From: Cryobacterium sp.
GTDB lineage: Bacteria > Actinomycetota > Actinomycetes > Actinomycetales > Microbacteriaceae
Assembly (NCBI RefSeq): GCF_026786305.1
Contig: NZ_JAJAYI010000098.1
Span: 1-42,238 of the forward strand
Length of the DNA: 42,238 nt
Reading direction: 5' to 3'
Positions 10,467-27,346 of this stretch are shown here, in pieces (position 1 is the first letter of the stretch; every line of letters starts with the position of its first letter). Below the pieces are notes generated by a model. It was not told the origin of the DNA. It saw nothing but the letters and a program-made list of their open reading frames with translations, and did not search any database. Made by a program: the position numbers and the translations under genes.

Positions 10467-11777
10467 CTACTTCGTGGGCACGGTCTGAACGGCCAGGGCG
10501 AGGTTTCCGTCGGCGAGGCTACCCCAGGCGTACACGATGGTATTGGTGCTCCGGGCGATGGTAACGTCGGCCGGACCGATGAGCGCGGCAGTGGTGCCAG
10601 CTGCGGCAACCGCGGCCGAGATGGTGCCCACCGGAAGCACAAGCACGGACTCGTTCGGGTTCGTCAGACCGGTGAAAGCCGGGGCGCCATTGGCGAGCAC
10701 GTCCACCGCCGGAGCGGCAGCGACGTGGCGCACCGTGAGGCGCCCCTGGCCGTCGCCGGGTGCGGAGGTGTCGTTCGTGAACAGCGCCGCGGTGGAAACT
10801 CCCGTCTCGCTCAGGTGAGCCACCGCCGTGTAGTTCATACCGGACGCGACAGTGAGGACGACCGGACCAATCACGGCAGCGCTCGCGTCGGCGGCATCCG
10901 CTGCGGTGATGGCGAGGCTGTAGCTACCAGCCGCGATACGGAATGTCCTGGTGAGGGTGCCGGGTTCGAAATTGTCGATGACCCGCTTGTTGTCCACATA
11001 GACGTCAACCACGACGCCGGGAATAGCGTGCAGCACCGAAACGGATGCCCGTGCTTGGGCCCGCGTGCGAACCGTCTGCACGAACAGGGCCAGGTTGTTG
11101 TCGGCGAGACTGCCCCAGGCGTAGACGATGGTGTTGGTGCGCGGAGCAATCACGACATCGGCCGGGCCGAGCAGCGGTGCGGTGGTTCCGGCGGCGGCGA
11201 CTACGGCGCTGATCGTGCCTACCGGCAGGTCGAGCGCGGCCTGCGCTGGGTTGGTCAGACCGGCGACGGCGACGGCTCCGTTCGCGAGCACGTCAACAGC
11301 GGGGGCGGCCGCGACGTGGCGCACGGTCAATCGACCCTGCCCGGCGGCCAGTGGTGTGGTGTCATTGTTGAACAGGGTCGCGGTGGGGATACCGGTGGCG
11401 CTCAGGTGGGCAACGGCCGTGAAGCTGCGGCCGGCCGTGACCGTCACGGTGGTCGAGCCACTCAGGGCAATACCAGCCATCGGCGAGCCATTGGCGCTGC
11501 CGCCGAGCACGACGGGGTTCGAGGCGGAGATGTCCAGGGTGTGGGTGCCGGCCGAGATCGTGAACGGGCCGAGCAGGGTCCCCGGCTTGAAGTCGTCGAC
11601 GACGACGCGGCCGTCCACCGAAATATCGAGGTTCAGTCCGGGAATGGCATGCAGCACCGAAACCGAGGCGGTGCCCGGTGCCGCGGATGCCGCGGGAACC
11701 GCCGCCTGTGCCGGCGCGAGCCCGGCGAGAGCGACGAGAAGGCCGGCGGAGATTCCGACGGCTATGGATTTGCGCAT
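10467..11777 (-). CDS. Secreted protein with two DUF4397 units
   Basis: A 436-residue exported protein. It has a signal peptide (MRKSIAVGISAGLLVALAGL, then AxA near residue 25) and an internal duplication. Each half contains SVLHAIPG, a DxFxPGTL segment, LTVRHVAAAPAVDVLANG and TNTIVYAWGSLAD. The halves span about residues 38-240 and 245-436. DUF4397 domains are beta-rich extracellular modules with no assigned function. There is no C-terminal membrane helix or sorting signal, so this copy is probably released, unlike the paralogue at 26337. The start has GGAGG 5 bases upstream. It follows the sigma/anti-sigma pair on the same strand with a 107-base gap and may be their regulon member. Confidence 0.9.
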   Translation of the reverse strand: MRKSIAVGISAGLLVALAGLAPAQAAVPAASAAPGTASVSVLHAIPGLNLDISVDGRVVVDDFKPGTLLGPFTISAGTHTLDISASNPVVLGGSANGSPMAGIALSGSTTVTVTAGRSFTAVAHLSATGIPTATLFNNDTTPLAAGQGRLTVRHVAAAPAVDVLANGAVAVAGLTNPAQAALDLPVGTISAVVAAAGTTAPLLGPADVVIAPRTNTIVYAWGSLADNNLALFVQTVRTRAQARASVSVLHAIPGVVVDVYVDNKRVIDNFEPGTLTRTFRIAAGSYSLAITAADAADASAAVIGPVVLTVASGMNYTAVAHLSETGVSTAALFTNDTSAPGDGQGRLTVRHVAAAPAVDVLANGAPAFTGLTNPNESVLVLPVGTISAAVAAAGTTAALIGPADVTIARSTNTIVYAWGSLADGNLALAVQTVPTK

Positions 11778-11884
11778 TGCTACCTCCAGTGGGTCGTTAC
11801 GGAAGGCAACATTGCCTCCCTGCTAAGCTCTTCTCCCGCTTGGCGGGTTTCGGATGCACCGCTTGAACTATTTCGCGGACAGGT

Positions 11885-12763
11885 TCACAGCGCGTGTAAC
11901 TGGCCGCGCACGATCGAGTCACCGGAGTGTGCCGGGTCGCCGTCGGTGGGCTCGGCCGACACGTCGATGATCGGGTACTGGGCCAGGTCAACGCTCGCGG
12001 GGATGGTGAAACGACCGGTGGACCCGTCGAGGAATCCGATGCTGACCAGACCGGACGCATCCGCTTTGAGCAGCCAGACCTCGCGCAGGCTGGTGCTCGA
12101 GGAGGCCGGCGCGTCAAGGTCGACGACGACCGCGCGACGACCGTCGGAGGCTTGCTCGACCCGGGCCGACCCGCCCGCGGTCCAGCCGGGCAGGGCGTCG
12201 AGGGTGGCCTCGGCAACGACCTGCTCACGGGGCGAGCCTCCGGTCGTGCTCGCGACACCAATGGCGATGCCGCCCACCAGTCCGATCACGCCGGCGGCAG
12301 CCGCGACGGGCACCCAACGGCGCCGGGGCAGCAGACGAACAGGTGCAATCTCCCGCACCGAGCCCGAATCCGGCAGTACCTCGGGCGGCGTGGCTGATTC
12401 CGGCCCGTCGATCAGCGAACCGGATGCATCGGGCCGGGCCGCCGTGTCCGTCAGGTGAGGGGGCGTCGAGAGGCGAGGCACCGTACGCACGGCATCGCTC
12501 AGCCCGAGTTCGGCACGAATGCTCGCCCAGACTGCCGCGGGCGGCGTGAGTAGGCGGTCGAACCCGGCCGCGCGACCGAGTTGCACGACCTGGCGCAGGG
12601 CGAGGTACTCGCCGGCGCACGCGGCGCAGGCGGCGAGGTGGGCGCGCTCCCGGGCACTTGCGTCACGTTCAGCCACCAGGGCCAGCAGGTGCAGGTCGGC
12701 CGCGTCGATATGGGCCGCGTCAATGTGGGCCGCGTCAATGTGGGTGGCATTAATCGGAGTCAT
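11885..12763 (-). CDS. RskA-type anti-sigma factor (module 1)
   Basis: This protein would hold the adjacent ECF sigma factor at the membrane. Its 292 residues include a zinc-finger anti-sigma motif His42-x3-Cys46-x2-Cys49 (HLAACAAC), one membrane helix at about 150-172, and an extracytoplasmic RskA-like domain (REVWLLKADASGLVSIGFL ... VDVSAEPTDG). The N-terminus carries three near-identical HIDAA repeats encoded by a 15-base tandem repeat. The start codon lies inside the sigma gene, with a 14-base overlap, as in the paralogous pair at 24.9 kb. RskA-type factors are usually released by regulated proteolysis; the inducing signal is unknown. Confidence 0.92.
   Translation of the reverse strand: MTPINATHIDAAHIDAAHIDAADLHLLALVAERDASARERAHLAACAACAGEYLALRQVVQLGRAAGFDRLLTPPAAVWASIRAELGLSDAVRTVPRLSTPPHLTDTAARPDASGSLIDGPESATPPEVLPDSGSVREIAPVRLLPRRRWVPVAAAAGVIGLVGGIAIGVASTTGGSPREQVVAEATLDALPGWTAGGSARVEQASDGRRAVVVDLDAPASSSTSLREVWLLKADASGLVSIGFLDGSTGRFTIPASVDLAQYPIIDVSAEPTDGDPAHSGDSIVRGQLHAL
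12702..12746. repeat. 15-base tandem repeat, three copies, in the anti-sigma gene
   Basis: Three tandem 15-base units (consensus GCGTCAATGTGGGCC on the plus strand) encode HIDAA repeats near the N-terminus of the anti-sigma factor. The two inner units are nearly identical. Copy changes would keep the reading frame and only lengthen or shorten the N-terminal tail. Confidence 0.85.
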
Positions 12764-13394
12764 CGGACACCTCCAGCCGGGTGCGCAGGCGGGTCAGACT
12801 GCGCCGCATGTGGCTTTTGACCGTGCCGAGCGGCAGTCCGAGGCTGTCGGCGATCTGCACCTGGGTGAGATCGTCGAAGAAGGCGAGGCGCATCACCTGC
12901 CGCGGTATGGGCTCGAGTCGGTCGATTTCGTCGCCGACGAGCACCCGGTTGACCACGCTGACGCTGTCGTCCGCGCGATGCGACGGTAGGGTCGCGGCGA
13001 GCGATACCTCGAGTCGTCGCTGTCGGCTGCGAGCCTCATGGGTGTCGGCGATCACGTGCCGGGTGATGCCGATCAGCCAGGCCGGTAGTCGGGACCGGGC
13101 GGGGTCGAATCCGGCGCGCCCGCGCCAGGCTGCGATGAACACTTTTTGGGTGACGTCCTCGGCGTCGGTGGCATTGGCGAGCGATCGCACGGCGATTGTG
13201 AAGACCAGCGGCGACCAGCGTGTGTAGGCCTTGGCCAGGGCGCGCTCGTCGCCGTCCTGAAAGTTGCGGGACAAAGCCGCGTCATCGTCGATGGGTGCGC
13301 TCACGTCGGGGTGGGTCCTTCGGGCCGAAACACGAACCGGGCAGGGGCGCGGCAGCCGAACACCTCGGGTGTCGACCTCCGCGCGCACCAGCAT
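12750..13394 (-). CDS. ECF RNA polymerase sigma factor (module 1)
   Basis: An extracytoplasmic-function sigma factor of 214 residues. Region 2 reads [20 protein letters not shown] and continues into LPAWLIGITRHVIAD. Region 4 ends in [20 protein letters not shown], a classic helix-turn-helix. The ATG at 13394 has GAAGGA 8 bases upstream; a GTG at 13304 with AAGGAC is a possible shorter start. The gene overlaps the anti-sigma gene by 14 bases. Region 4 is nearly identical in sense to the paralogue at 24941, so the two factors may recognise overlapping promoters (inference). Confidence 0.92.
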   Translation of the reverse strand: MLVRAEVDTRGVRLPRPCPVRVSARRTHPDVSAPIDDDAALSRNFQDGDERALAKAYTRWSPLVFTIAVRSLANATDAEDVTQKVFIAAWRGRAGFDPARSRLPAWLIGITRHVIADTHEARSRQRRLEVSLAATLPSHRADDSVSVVNRVLVGDEIDRLEPIPRQVMRLAFFDDLTQVQIADSLGLPLGTVKSHMRRSLTRLRTRLEVSDDSD

Positions 13395-13445
13395 AGTGAG
13401 TTTCCTTCGACTCGGGGAGGCTCCCTTGCCCGTCAAGGACGGCGA

Positions 13446-13489
13446 AAGGGGCCACAGCAGCAAACCCGACGTCGCTCGCTGTGGCCCTT
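13446..13489 (-). terminator. Hairpin downstream of the succinate-semialdehyde dehydrogenase gene
   Basis: AAGGGGCCACAGC near 13447 pairs with GCTGTGGCCCTT at 13478-13489, with one bulge. On the minus strand it is followed by a short T run. It separates the dehydrogenase gene from the sigma-factor gene. Confidence 0.6.
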
Positions 13490-22981: not shown

Positions 22982-24064
22982 ATGACCACCATTTCTAACC
23001 CGGTTCCCACCCCCACCGCGACCCCACCCGACATCCTCCGCTGCGCCTACATGGACATCGTTGTGACCGACCTGGCCGCGTCCCGCGAGTTCTACGTCGA
23101 CATTCTCGGACTCGTCGTCACCGAGGAGAGCGACACCGAGATCTACCTGCGCAGCTTCGAGGAGTTCATCCATCACAACCTCGTGCTGCGCCAGGGTCCG
23201 ATTGCCGCCGTCGCCGCGATGGCTTTCCGGGTGCGCAGTCCCGAAGACGTCGACCTGGCCGAGGCCTACTACCGTGAACTCGGCTGCCGCACCGAACGCC
23301 GCACCGAGGGCTTTGTGAAAGGCATCGGCGACAGCGTGCGTGTCGAAGACCCGCTCGGCTTTCCCTACGAGTTCTTCTACGCGACCACCCACGTTGAACG
23401 CCTCGCCTGGCGCTACGACCTGCAGGGCCCGGGCGCACTCGTGCGGCTCGACCACTTCAACCAGGTCACCCCCGACGTCGGCCGCGGTCGCACATACCTC
23501 GAAGACCTGGGTTTTCGCGTCACCGAAGACATCCAGGACTCCGACGGCGTGACCTACGCGGCCTGGATGCGTCGCAAGGACACCGTGCACGACACCGCTC
23601 TCACCGGCGGCAACGGGCCGCGCATGCACCACATCGCATTCTCCACGCACGAGAAGCACAACATCATCTACATCTGCGACAAGCTCGGCGCTTTGCGCAA
23701 AAGCGACCTGATCGAGCGTGGCCCTGGCCGGCACGGTGTCTCGAACGCGTTCTACCTCTACCTGCGCGACCCCGACGGCCACCGCGTCGAGATCTACACC
23801 CAGGACTACTACACCGGCGACCCCGACAACCCGGTCGTCACCTGGGACGTGCACGACAACCAGCGCCGCGACTGGTGGGGCAACCCCGTCGTGCCCAGCT
23901 GGTACACCGAAGCCTCGCTCGTGCTCGACCTCGACGGCACGCCCCAGCCGGTCATCGAGCGCACCGAGTCGAGCGAAATGGCCGTGACCGTCGGGGCCGA
24001 CGGCTTCTCCTACACCCGTAAAGACGACGAGGTCGCCGGCTTCAAACTAGGCACCACCCTCTAG
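22982..24064 (+). CDS. hpaD: 3,4-dihydroxyphenylacetate 2,3-dioxygenase
   Basis: This is the extradiol ring-cleaving enzyme for homoprotocatechuate, type I (vicinal oxygen chelate) family, like the Brevibacterium and Arthrobacter (MndD) enzymes. The metal ligands are His158 (RLDHFN), His217 (MHHIAF) and Glu270 (HRVEIYTQDYY), each offset by +3 from His155/His214/Glu267 of the Brevibacterium enzyme. Four VOC modules fit the 360-residue length. The metal may be Fe(II) or Mn(II); sequence alone does not decide. The start at 22982 follows CGAGGAG with 7-8 bases spacing. It is the last gene of the operon. Confidence 0.96.
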   Translation: MTTISNPVPTPTATPPDILRCAYMDIVVTDLAASREFYVDILGLVVTEESDTEIYLRSFEEFIHHNLVLRQGPIAAVAAMAFRVRSPEDVDLAEAYYRELGCRTERRTEGFVKGIGDSVRVEDPLGFPYEFFYATTHVERLAWRYDLQGPGALVRLDHFNQVTPDVGRGRTYLEDLGFRVTEDIQDSDGVTYAAWMRRKDTVHDTALTGGNGPRMHHIAFSTHEKHNIIYICDKLGALRKSDLIERGPGRHGVSNAFYLYLRDPDGHRVEIYTQDYYTGDPDNPVVTWDVHDNQRRDWWGNPVVPSWYTEASLVLDLDGTPQPVIERTESSEMAVTVGADGFSYTRKDDEVAGFKLGTTL

Positions 24065-24114: not shown

Positions 24115-24954
24115 TCAGGTCGAGTGGAGTTCACCGCGCACGACCGAGTCCGCCGAGTGCGCTGGCATGCCGTCGTTGGGCTCTGCGGAGACATCCACGA
24201 GCGGGTATTCCGCGAGATCAATTTCGGCGGGAATCACGAAGCGGCCGGTTGTGCCGGTGAGAAAACCAAGACTCACCAGCCTCGTTGCATCCGTGCTGAG
24301 CAGCCATACCTCGCGCAGGGGGGCGTCCACGGATGGGGCAACCGAGGGGTTCAACGTGACCAGCACATCACGCTGGCCAGACGAAGTCTCCTCAACGGAT
24401 GCCTGCCCGGTCGCGCTCCAGCCCGGGAGCGGTTCGAGCTTTGCGCGAGCGACAACGGATGGCCCGCCACCGAAATCGGGCCACCAACTACTCGCTCCAT
24501 AGCCGGCCACGAGGCCGATCACCGTTGCGGCCGCGAGCGGGATCCACCGGCGACGGGCGCGGGATATCGCCACGACCGGGGCCGGTTGCCGGGCAGATGG
24601 CCGGGTTGATGCCGGGGCAGGCGCAGGCGACACACCGGTAACGACGGCGGTTGTCGGCACGGCGGTTGTCGGCACGGCGGTTGTCGGCACGGCGTCTGAA
24701 GAATCCGTCAGCGCGGGAAGGGAAGCCATCGCGGCAGACAAGCCCAGTTCGGAGTGAATGCGGCTCCATGCACCGGCATCAGGGGTGATGAGCCGGGCGC
24801 CGGGGGCTGAGCGGCCCACCGCAACGGTGTGCTGCAGGGCGAGGAGGTCGTTGGCGCACTCGGTACAGACCGCGAGGTGTTCGCGTTCCATGGGCGTGGG
24901 CTCAAGCTCGGCCAGGGCGATCAGGGCGAGATCGTCGGGATTAAAATGCGTCAT
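24115..24954 (-). CDS. RskA-type anti-sigma factor (module 2)
   Basis: A 279-residue membrane anti-sigma factor paralogous to the one at 11885. It has the zinc motif His26-x3-Cys30-x2-Cys33 (HLAVCTEC), one membrane helix at about 138-157 after RARRRW, and an extracytoplasmic RskA-like domain ([19 protein letters not shown] ... [10 protein letters not shown]). The linker before the helix is Pro/Thr/Ala rich and holds three AVPTT repeats at about 88-103 encoded by a 15-base tandem repeat. The start lies 14 bases inside the sigma gene, exactly as in module 1. It is the last gene of the module and is followed by the convergent hairpin. Confidence 0.92.
24646..24690. repeat. 15-base tandem repeat, three identical copies, in the anti-sigma gene
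   Basis: GGCGGTTGTCGGCAC occurs three times in a row (24646, 24661, 24676) and encodes the VPTTA repeats of the cytoplasmic linker. The copies are perfect, so the array is young or homogenised. Length changes would stay in frame. Confidence 0.9.
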
Positions 24955-25654
24955 AGCTCACCTCCAGTCTAGTTTTGAGACGGCTCAGACTCCTGCGGAT
25001 ATGGCTCTTCACGGTGCCGAGCGGCAGTCCGAGGCTGTCGGCAATCTGTACGTGCGTGAGATCCTCGTAGAAGGCCAGTTTCATCACCTGCCGGGGAACG
25101 GCCTCGAGCCGCTCGAGTTCCTCGCGCATGAGCACTTGGTCGGCCACCGCAATCGAATCATCGGGCTGCACGAGGGGAACGTACCCTGCAGCCACGCCTT
25201 CTACTTGGCGGCGTCGGGTGCGCGCTCTGTGGGCATCCGCAACCGCGTTCCGGGTGATTCCCACCAGCCAGGCGGGCAATCGGGACCGGTCAGGATCGAA
25301 GGTATGCCGACCACGCCAGGCGGCGATGAAAACTTTCTGCAGCACATCCTCGGCTTCGGTATGGTCACCGAGCGACCGGACGGCGACCGTGAAGACGAGC
25401 GCCGACCAGCGGGCGTACATCTCCGCGAGAGCACGCTCGTCACCATCGCGGAACCTCTCGACAAGCCGCCGGTCCGCCTCGAGGACGGCAAAATTGTTTT
25501 CAGCCGCGCTGAGGGAATCCACATTCTTGTGGCTCGTGCTGTCGTCGGGCTGCGTCACGGGGTGAGAATGGCTCCTGGGGGCAGGACGTGTCGTCGGATG
25601 CGCGTCTCTTTGGCCGGTGACCGGTGAACCCGCGGGGTTTGTGTTCATCAGCAT
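24941..25654 (-). CDS. ECF RNA polymerase sigma factor (module 2)
   Basis: A 237-residue ECF sigma factor. It has an N-terminal extension of about 45 residues rich in Pro, Ser and His. Region 2 is [20 protein letters not shown] followed by [15 protein letters not shown]. Region 4 is [20 protein letters not shown]. The ATG at 25654 has AGGGG upstream; Met3 is an alternative. The regions 2 and 4 closely follow those of the sigma factor at 12750. It lies 11 bases after the sortase gene and overlaps the anti-sigma gene by 14 bases, so DUF4397, sortase, sigma and anti-sigma genes form one probable operon. Confidence 0.92.
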
Positions 25655-25665
25655 AGCGACCCCTG

Positions 25666-26331
25666 CTACGCCACCGGGATCGCGGTGACAACGATATTCG
25701 ACTGGTACTGCCGTGTCGTGTAGTTAAATTCTCCTCCGCAGGTCACGAGGGTGAGGCGCGGCGACCCGGTACGGTCGAAAACTGCGGCCCATGGCACCTC
25801 GGGTTTGCCGGTGGACTGCACCGATTCCAGCGCATACCGGTGTTCGACGCCGTCATCGGACGACACCATGATTTCGGTACCGGCCGGCGCATCGGCCAGT
25901 CTCGCGAAGGGGCCGAGCCCGTATCGCAGTGAGTCCACATGGGCCGCGATCACCGTCGCTCCCTCGGCGCCGGGTGCTGGACCAAAGCGGTACCACGATG
26001 CGATGTCGGGGTTGGCCGCGAGCGCCATCGATCCGACGGCGTCGAGTCCTGCGGGTTCAACGGTCATGTCGATGTTGAGCGACGGGATGCGGATGCGCGT
26101 GGGTGCCGCGGCCGCTGGTCGCTGGTTGGCCAGGCTGGCATCGACCGTGGGTACATCGATGACCGGCGCGGGTGGCGGCGCGGGTGGCGGCGCGAGCGGT
26201 GAAACGGATACCGATGGCGACGACGACGGGGCCGGTGTGGATGGTGCGGCGGAGCATCCGCTGATCACGAGCGCCAGGAGAGCCGGCGCGAGAATGGCGG
26301 CGCGCCTCGATCCGGCTCTCCCCGTGCCCAT
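25666..26331 (-). CDS. Class F-like sortase with lipobox
   Basis: A 221-residue extracytoplasmic transpeptidase. The catalytic triad is His131 (AAHVDS), Cys198 (TLVTCGG) and Arg207 (TTRQYQ). The compact size and the single N-terminal hydrophobic segment fit actinobacterial class F sortases. The segment ends in ISGC (Cys26), a plausible lipobox, followed by a Pro/Ser linker to about residue 75, so the enzyme may be a lipoprotein rather than a transmembrane protein. The gene starts 5 bases after the stop of the DUF4397 gene, whose protein has a sorting-signal-like tail. That makes the DUF4397 protein the obvious candidate substrate (inference). Confidence 0.9.
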
Positions 26332-26336
26332 GGTGG

Positions 26337-27173
26337 TCAGTTGCCCTTCGACGTCGCGGTGCGACGCGCCCGCAGTGTGGCGGCGATGACCACGCCGAGA
26401 AGCAGCACGAGCGACGAACCGCCGAGCCAGAGCGCGGCGGGAGCCACCGGCTGGTTGGTGGCGGCGAGGCCTGCCTCACCGGCCGGGATGCTGCCGGGAG
26501 TGGAGTGCAGGCCGGTGATGGTCTGCAGGCCGAGCGCGAGGTTGTTGTCCGCAAGGCTGCCCCAGGCGTAGACGATGGTGTTGACACCTTCAGCCACGTT
26601 CACGTCGGCCGGCCCGATCACCGGCGTCGTGGTTCCGGTCGCCGCGACGGACGCGGAGATCGTTGCGGTCGGCAGAGTCAGCAACGACTCGGCGGGGTTC
26701 ACCAGGTTCGTAATGACGGGTGTACCACCGGCGAGCACGTCGACGGCGGGTGCCGCTGCCACGTGGCGCACAGTGAGTCGTCCTTCACCGGCGGCGAGGG
26801 TGGAAGTGTCGTTGGTGAACAGTGTGGCGGTTGGCGCACCGGCGGCAGCCAGGTGGGCCACGGCGGTGTAGTTCATGCCGCTTGCCAGGGCGAGGTCGAC
26901 CGGGCCGATGGCCGGTGAGCTGGCATCTGCAGCGTCCGCGGCCGTGATGGCGACCGAGTAGGTGCCGGGTGCGAGTTCGAGCGGACCAGCGAGGGCGCCG
27001 GGCTCAAAGTTGTCGAGGGTGAGAGCACCGTTGACGTACACGTCCACGGTGAGACCGGGAACGCCGTGGAACACGGACAGTTTGGCGTCTCCTTCAGCGG
27101 CGGTAACCGGGGTCACGCCGACGAGAGCGATGAGCGCGCCCGCCGCGATGCCGGTGCTGAGTAACTTGCGCAT
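26337..27173 (-). CDS. Surface DUF4397 protein with sorting-signal-like tail
   Basis: A 278-residue exported protein with a signal peptide (LLSTGIAAGALIALVGV, then TAA) and one set of the units seen twice in the paralogue at 10467: SVFHGVPGLTVDVYVNG, LTVRHVAAAPAVDVLAGG and VNTIVYAWGSLAD. The C-terminus has LAATN (236-240), then a hydrophobic stretch (about 246-267) and a basic tail RARR. This order is that of a cell-wall sorting signal, and LAATN differs from class E LAxTG only in the last residue. The neighbouring sortase could anchor it; otherwise it is simply membrane bound. The start has GGAGG 8 bases upstream. It is the first gene of the module 2 operon. Confidence 0.9.
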   Translation of the reverse strand: MRKLLSTGIAAGALIALVGVTPVTAAEGDAKLSVFHGVPGLTVDVYVNGALTLDNFEPGALAGPLELAPGTYSVAITAADAADASSPAIGPVDLALASGMNYTAVAHLAAAGAPTATLFTNDTSTLAAGEGRLTVRHVAAAPAVDVLAGGTPVITNLVNPAESLLTLPTATISASVAATGTTTPVIGPADVNVAEGVNTIVYAWGSLADNNLALGLQTITGLHSTPGSIPAGEAGLAATNQPVAPAALWLGGSSLVLLLGVVIAATLRARRTATSKGN

Positions 27174-27346
27174 GAGAACCTCCTATTTGTTGCCCGGCGC
27201 GAGTCACCGTGGCAGGGGATGCTTACACACACTCCTACCGGTCCCATCGTGCGCTTGGATGCACTCCGCACGACATTTTTTGAGTTTTCGCTTTCGGTCA
27301 GGCCAGGCCTTCGTGCTCCCTATTGCTAATGCGCGGCGCGGGGCAC

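Follow-up and report, generated by a model that had tools for sequence, protein, structure and literature searches.

Four adjacent genes on the reverse strand of a Cryobacterium sp. contig (NZ_JAJAYI010000098.1, assembly GCF_026786305.1) encode, in the order of transcription, a DUF4397 protein, a sortase, an ECF sigma factor and an RskA-type anti-sigma factor. They lie in a stretch of 42,238 nucleotides, here called the window, which also carries a second, paralogous cassette. The features of both are given below.

24115..24954, minus strand: RskA-type membrane anti-sigma factor, 279 aa; 14-base overlap with the sigma factor gene
24941..25654, minus strand: ECF sigma factor, 237 aa (Sigma70_r2 and r4); 11-base gap to the sortase gene
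25666..26331, minus strand: class F-like sortase, 221 aa (PF04203, 64 bits); 5-base gap to the DUF4397 gene
26337..27173, minus strand: DUF4397 protein, putatively surface-located, 278 aa (PF14344, 105 bits)
26343..26441, minus strand: predicted C-terminal helix and basic end of the DUF4397 protein, residues 245-277 (low pLDDT)
26454..26468, minus strand: LAATN, the signal proposed earlier (Thr in 13 of 34 tails)
26478..26498, minus strand: sorting motif proposed here, P226-G232 (PGSIPAG); all 34 aligned tails keep its P, [VI] and G
27235..27263, minus strand: promoter-like element TGCATCC-N16-CGGTAG, ending 61 nt before the DUF4397 start
10467..11777, minus strand: paralogous DUF4397 protein with four DUF4397 stretches and no sorting tail
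11830..11858, minus strand: second promoter-like element, before the paralogous DUF4397 gene
11885..12763, minus strand: paralogous RskA-type anti-sigma factor
12750..13463, minus strand: paralogous ECF sigma factor, 65 percent identity over residues 56-236

The sequence-only reading of this DNA had described four genes with 5-base, 11-base and overlapping spacing that likely form a single operon. The open reading frames are confirmed at these coordinates, and the single operon is backed by cross-genome comparison, in which the gene order is conserved with the promoter-like element in front. The genome (3.06 Mb in 109 contigs) encodes two sortases above the Pfam cut-off, that of the quartet and a class E enzyme on contig 43. 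An aromatic degradation cluster adjoins the quartet: an HpaD-type dioxygenase gene (22982-24064), which has aldehyde dehydrogenase genes in its surroundings, is convergent with the cassette.

The DUF4397 protein has a signal peptide-like N-terminus, two predicted beta domains, a linker, a C-terminal helix and a basic end. In its AlphaFold model the beta domains cover residues 30-120 and 130-219, a low-confidence linker holds the proposed motif and the helix begins at residue 245. The LAATN (within AGLAATN), hydrophobic helix and basic end noticed earlier at the C-terminus are all present, and the protein has the sequence features of a sortase substrate, namely a candidate motif followed by a hydrophobic helix and a basic end. 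Searches for solved relatives with the DUF4397 profile returned just weak matches (E >= 0.15). With the model, the best Foldseek matches are the extracellular domains of PepT1/PepT2 (E 4.5e-6), AlgF domains being weaker, and no function of DUF4397 follows from these matches.

The best NCBIfam match of the sortase is the class F model NF033748, at 116.4 bits; because this score lies under the curated cut-off of 166, the enzyme is called class F-like. Comparison of its AlphaFold model gives sortases A, C, D and E as matches, and the sequence search for solved relatives gave none at E 0.01. His131, Cys198 and Asn212 are invariant in 20 of 20 aligned sequences, and Asn212 appears, on our reading of the alignment, to occupy the position of the catalytic arginine. 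The N-terminus carries a lipobox-like ISGC after a hydrophobic stretch, and by a simple pattern 29 of 38 type A sortases have such an N-terminus; the quartet sortase may thus be a lipoprotein.

By sequence, the PDB entries closest to the sigma factor are RpoE (75 bits), SigL (67 bits) and SigK (65 bits), and in NCBIfam it scores 119 bits with PRK12519 and 105 bits with the SigK model. Seven sigma matches occur in the genome, the closest (65 percent identity) being the sigma factor of the second cassette. RskA_C (PF10099) matches 15 of the 16 anti-sigma factors of alignment A5 (best 1.2e-16), but not the one in the window, which has no Pfam match at E 0.1 and no solved relative by sequence at E 1. 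Near the N-terminus of the latter is an H-x3-C-x2-C motif (H26, C30, C33), of zinc type as judged from sequence only; its Cys residues are nearly invariant among the anti-sigma factors and are missing in L151.

The quartet recurs in other genomes. Sortase searches of 150 genomes of the family gave matches in 46, and the surroundings of the listed matches were taken; in these surroundings the order DUF4397-sortase-sigma-anti-sigma is found in 29 of the 150 genomes (28 and the genome studied here). DUF4397 is present in 45 of the 150 genomes. The same order occurs in Cryobacterium sp. MLB-32 (L003) and in two Agreia strains (L004 and L009, the latter on the same contig as L049 of the family sample). 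At three loci (L041, L044, L070) the DUF4397-sortase pair has no sigma/anti-sigma genes nearby. In a phylum sample of 296 genomes searched with the DUF4397 profile (37 matched), the set of four is found in seven. All four genes lie on one strand at six of these loci (L148, L149, L151, L152, L153 and L160), the anti-sigma gene of L153 being truncated by the contig end, and L150 has all four, but with divergent sigma and anti-sigma genes. Because the order is kept in other genomes, the arrangement is more than chance, and a chance clustering of the four genes is ruled out.

The promoter-like element is conserved and rare. Sequences upstream of the DUF4397 genes yield the consensus TGCATCC-N16/17-[CG][AG]G[AT]AG (TGCATCC-N16/17-SRGWAG), and since the pattern was derived from these same sequences, its counts are descriptive. 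The window has two copies, where shuffling predicts 0.03, and the 3.06 Mb genome has three, at both DUF4397 loci and at one position within a coding frame; the reversed control has no site in the genome. In its strict form it is found ahead of 26 of the 39 type A DUF4397 ORFs that have a linked sortase, none of the 40 other linked ORFs and 3 of 21 unlinked ones. A recount adds L181 and the second DUF4397 gene of L043, one of the 13 type A linked ORFs counted as lacking the element, and each of the 31 matches in the 118 loci (1.24 Mb) is then upstream of a DUF4397 gene. Such a distribution is consistent with a small regulon of about two operons under autoregulation. The TGCATCC element presumably resembles a SigK promoter. 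Of the earlier proposal that the sigma/anti-sigma pair drives display, the pair and the conserved element in front of the operon stand, while the pairing of this sigma factor with this promoter is putative.

The second cassette of the window (10467-13463) has sigma, anti-sigma and DUF4397 genes and the promoter-like element in common with the quartet, and is without a sortase gene. Both sample genomes of the same genus (L182, L183) likewise have the sortase-less form and no sortase match. The window paralogue is the natural comparison for the link between tail and sortase.

LAATN had been put forward as the sorting signal. In an alignment of 34 type A tails, however, its Thr position is occupied by Thr in only 13, by Asp in 8, Glu in 4, Arg in 3, Gln in 2 and by others in the rest, and LAATN was rejected as the signal. 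Located 7 to 14 residues upstream of it is a motif, P-x-x-[VI]-x-[AST]-G-x-x-G, whose P, [VI], G and G are invariant in all 34 tails and whose version in the window is PGSIPAGEAG. The residue before its first G is Ala in 28 tails, including that of the window, Thr in 3 and Ser in 3. Homologous tails without a LAxT-like motif had been named in advance as evidence against display. Such tails exist where LAATN is concerned, but as another motif is invariant just upstream, the idea of display survives. It seems, from these alignments, that LAATN was misplaced as a signal and that the sorting element is the upstream G-[VI]-x-[AST]-G stretch.

The tail goes with the sortase. The set examined comprises 100 DUF4397 ORFs in 118 loci, gathered via sortase or DUF4397 searches. 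The motif regex matches 78 of the 79 ORFs with a downstream sortase gene and 4 of the 21 without; as some of these data had served to write the regex and the promoter pattern, these linkage counts are descriptive and no test is attached to them. The sole linked ORF without a match comes from L043, where an additional DUF4397 gene with no tail adjoins the quartet. Three of the unlinked matches (L170, L174, L177) fall outside the real signal, their own tails being [LMI]PDTG, and at the fourth (L110) a sortase profile hit is present that had been dropped by the active-site regex. Seven unlinked DUF4397 genes with sigma/anti-sigma genes close by on the same strand (the window paralogue, L155, L181, L182, L183, L185 and L186) have no such tail. 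Cross-genome comparison thus backs the tie between the sortase and a DUF4397 substrate.

Some DUF4397 proteins end differently. That of L155 (4713-5768), which adjoins sigma/anti-sigma genes, ends in a CW_binding_2 domain instead of a sorting tail, and those of L170, L171, L174 and L177 have [LMI]PDTG tails, with no class F-like sortase found nearby. Type B loci, such as L103 (2713-5657) and L091 (4977-7671), consist of a divergent DUF4397 gene, one more gene, which in L103 is of the GH8 family, and the gene of a class F-like sortase, and by eye are surrounded by glycosyltransferase-like genes in both cases. The motif is kept at type B loci, yet in 10 DUF4397 proteins there (and in those of L091 and L092) a C-terminal helix is not evident, at odds with a standard sorting signal.

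Related tails are found next to class F-like sortases in loci without DUF4397. At 11 of 15 such loci in the family, a neighbouring gene upstream encodes a protein with a [VIL]-x-[AST]-G tail, a helix and a basic end; these tails mostly read PxGG[VIL]xTG, and one tested neighbour is a CHRD protein. An independent set, unused in writing the motif, was formed by the best 30 loci of a class sample (146 of 197 genomes matched), with scores close to or above the class F cut-off; many of these loci are mutually related. An upstream neighbour has a helix and basic end at 24 of the 30; the original motif is matched at 11, and the original or a relaxed form, the latter written after viewing these 30 loci, at 21. 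The corresponding numbers among 144 control ORFs with a helix and basic end are 3 and 5. At the named Chloroflexota and Acidimicrobiia class F-like sortases the tail is absent from 4 of 5 loci, L005 having only a doubtful one. The NCBIfam model GVDTG_CTERM (NF058571, cut-off 29) gives L071 50 bits and L193 29.3 bits, and all 14 of its over-cut-off matches in the 150 family genomes sit just upstream of a sortase match. At E up to 1 it matches 5 of the 19 DUF4397 proteins of alignment A2 (best 4e-4); the DUF4397 tails that align, among them L067 (19.7 bits), L063 (18.1 bits), L074 and L076, all score below 29 bits. The DUF4397 tail of the window has no match in NCBIfam, GVDTG_CTERM included, and this model has no match in the genome at E 0.001.

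Taken together with these observations, the quartet is probably a self-contained, autoregulated display cassette for one substrate with a dedicated sortase. The RskA-type membrane anti-sigma factor would hold the SigK-like ECF sigma factor, and an envelope signal would free it. Freed sigma would transcribe the operon from the TGCATCC-N16-SRGWAG promoter, so that more sigma and anti-sigma would be made along with a single substrate and the sortase dedicated to it. After export, the C-terminal helix would hold the DUF4397 protein, the class F-like sortase encoded next to it would cut at G-[VI]-x-[AST]-G, most likely between Ala/Ser/Thr and Gly, and the cut protein would be joined to the cell wall.

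The weak point of display by such a route is the putative cleavage residue, which is Ala in the window as in most of the tails, whereas the sortases described in the available text of PMC13257024 and PMC5148588 use Thr before the cut. Also counting against this route are the type B proteins with no evident helix, the scores of the sortase and of the DUF4397 tails under the class F and GVDTG_CTERM cut-offs, the linked ORFs that lack the strict promoter pattern, and the DUF4397-sortase pairs of L041, L044 and L070 with no sigma/anti-sigma genes nearby. We regard a broader hypothesis as plausible, if at slightly less than even chance. Actinobacterial class F sortases would form a family of dedicated one-substrate enzymes reading P-x-G-x-[VA]-x-[TAS]-G-x-G-G, not LPXTG/LAXTG. 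The signal of the cassette would have drifted to G-[VI]-P-A-G, and the enzyme would in consequence accept Ala before the cut; display would be switched by the cassette's own sigma/anti-sigma pair, in a regulon of about two operons. In the portion of PMC13251363 available, two srtF-neighbour proteins with a helix and basic end are set aside because they showed none of the known pentapeptides.

Three other explanations deserve consideration. The tail could be a plain membrane anchor, with the sortase inactive or acting on something else. In line with this, the catalytic Arg is not conserved in our alignment, Asn being in its place, and deletion of four class F sortase genes in Actinoplanes is reported, in the accessible text of PMC13251363, to give no phenotype. 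The same Arg-to-Asn change is, however, reported for actinobacterial class F sortases (PMC6998099, in part), the Cutibacterium acnes class F sortase is described as recognising LPXTG (PMC13257024, likewise in part), and the tail accompanies the sortase gene, being absent from sortase-less paralogues. An anchor of this kind is unlikely.

Less probable still is that LAATN is after all the sorting signal, used by the quartet sortase or by the class E sortase of the genome. The 13 tails with Thr read [LM][AV]ATN, and the class E enzyme encoded on contig 43 belongs to a class whose motif is given as LAXTG (PMC5148588, available text). Against it, Thr is replaced in 21 of 34 tails from the same cassette, and even the loose pattern [LMI][AVP]xT[GN] fits just 16 of the 79 DUF4397 proteins with a linked sortase, and of these matches at least LADTN in L003 falls inside the DUF domain. 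About equally improbable is a fibre or lattice in which the sortase links DUF4397 proteins to each other and the tail-less paralogues are further subunits. The promoter is indeed common to tail-less DUF4397 genes (the window paralogue, the second gene beside the L043 quartet, and L181-L183), and DUF4397 is predicted to be a tandem beta-domain protein, but the tail-less proteins do not have the sorting motif. Wall display of a single substrate by its own sortase remains the reading we prefer.

The system is real and conserved, and it is its sorting signal that the sequence-only reading misplaced. With regard to LAXTG substrates of class E sortases, LAATN in the window is similar to LAXTG, and a class E sortase is encoded in the genome, but the poor conservation of its Thr sets these tails apart. 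Part of the signal is already catalogued as GVDTG_CTERM: some DUF4397 tails align to this model, and its over-cut-off matches adjoin class F-like sortases. The window tail differs in having no match, and those of other DUF4397 proteins stay under the model's cut-off; what is new is the extension of the signal to DUF4397 tails, together with the regulated quartet. The sortase is like class F enzymes (NF033748) in its best NCBIfam match and its invariant His, Cys and Asn, and unlike them in its score (116 bits, cut-off 166) and in the lipobox-like N-terminus of most type A sortases. The physiological role of class F sortases is stated as not known in the available part of PMC13251363. Here a substrate and a sortase form a conserved pair, the candidate motif is invariant and the promoter is a putative switch; with one substrate, one enzyme and one sigma factor, this role becomes directly testable.

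The closest described arrangement is the mpt83-sigK-rskA cassette of mycobacteria and relatives, in which a surface protein gene is preceded by a conserved SigK site (PMC7509140, available text). The sequence-only reading knew of no described system of this exact composition; none was found in the literature searched, although this related cassette qualifies the novelty. In both, a gene for a (here putative) surface protein adjoins sigma and anti-sigma genes, with a promoter site (here promoter-like) in front; SigK is among the top three PDB matches of the window sigma factor, and RskA_C is found on relatives of its anti-sigma factor. The window cassette differs in that its substrate is a DUF4397 protein rather than MPT83, and in the addition of a sortase gene between substrate and sigma factor.
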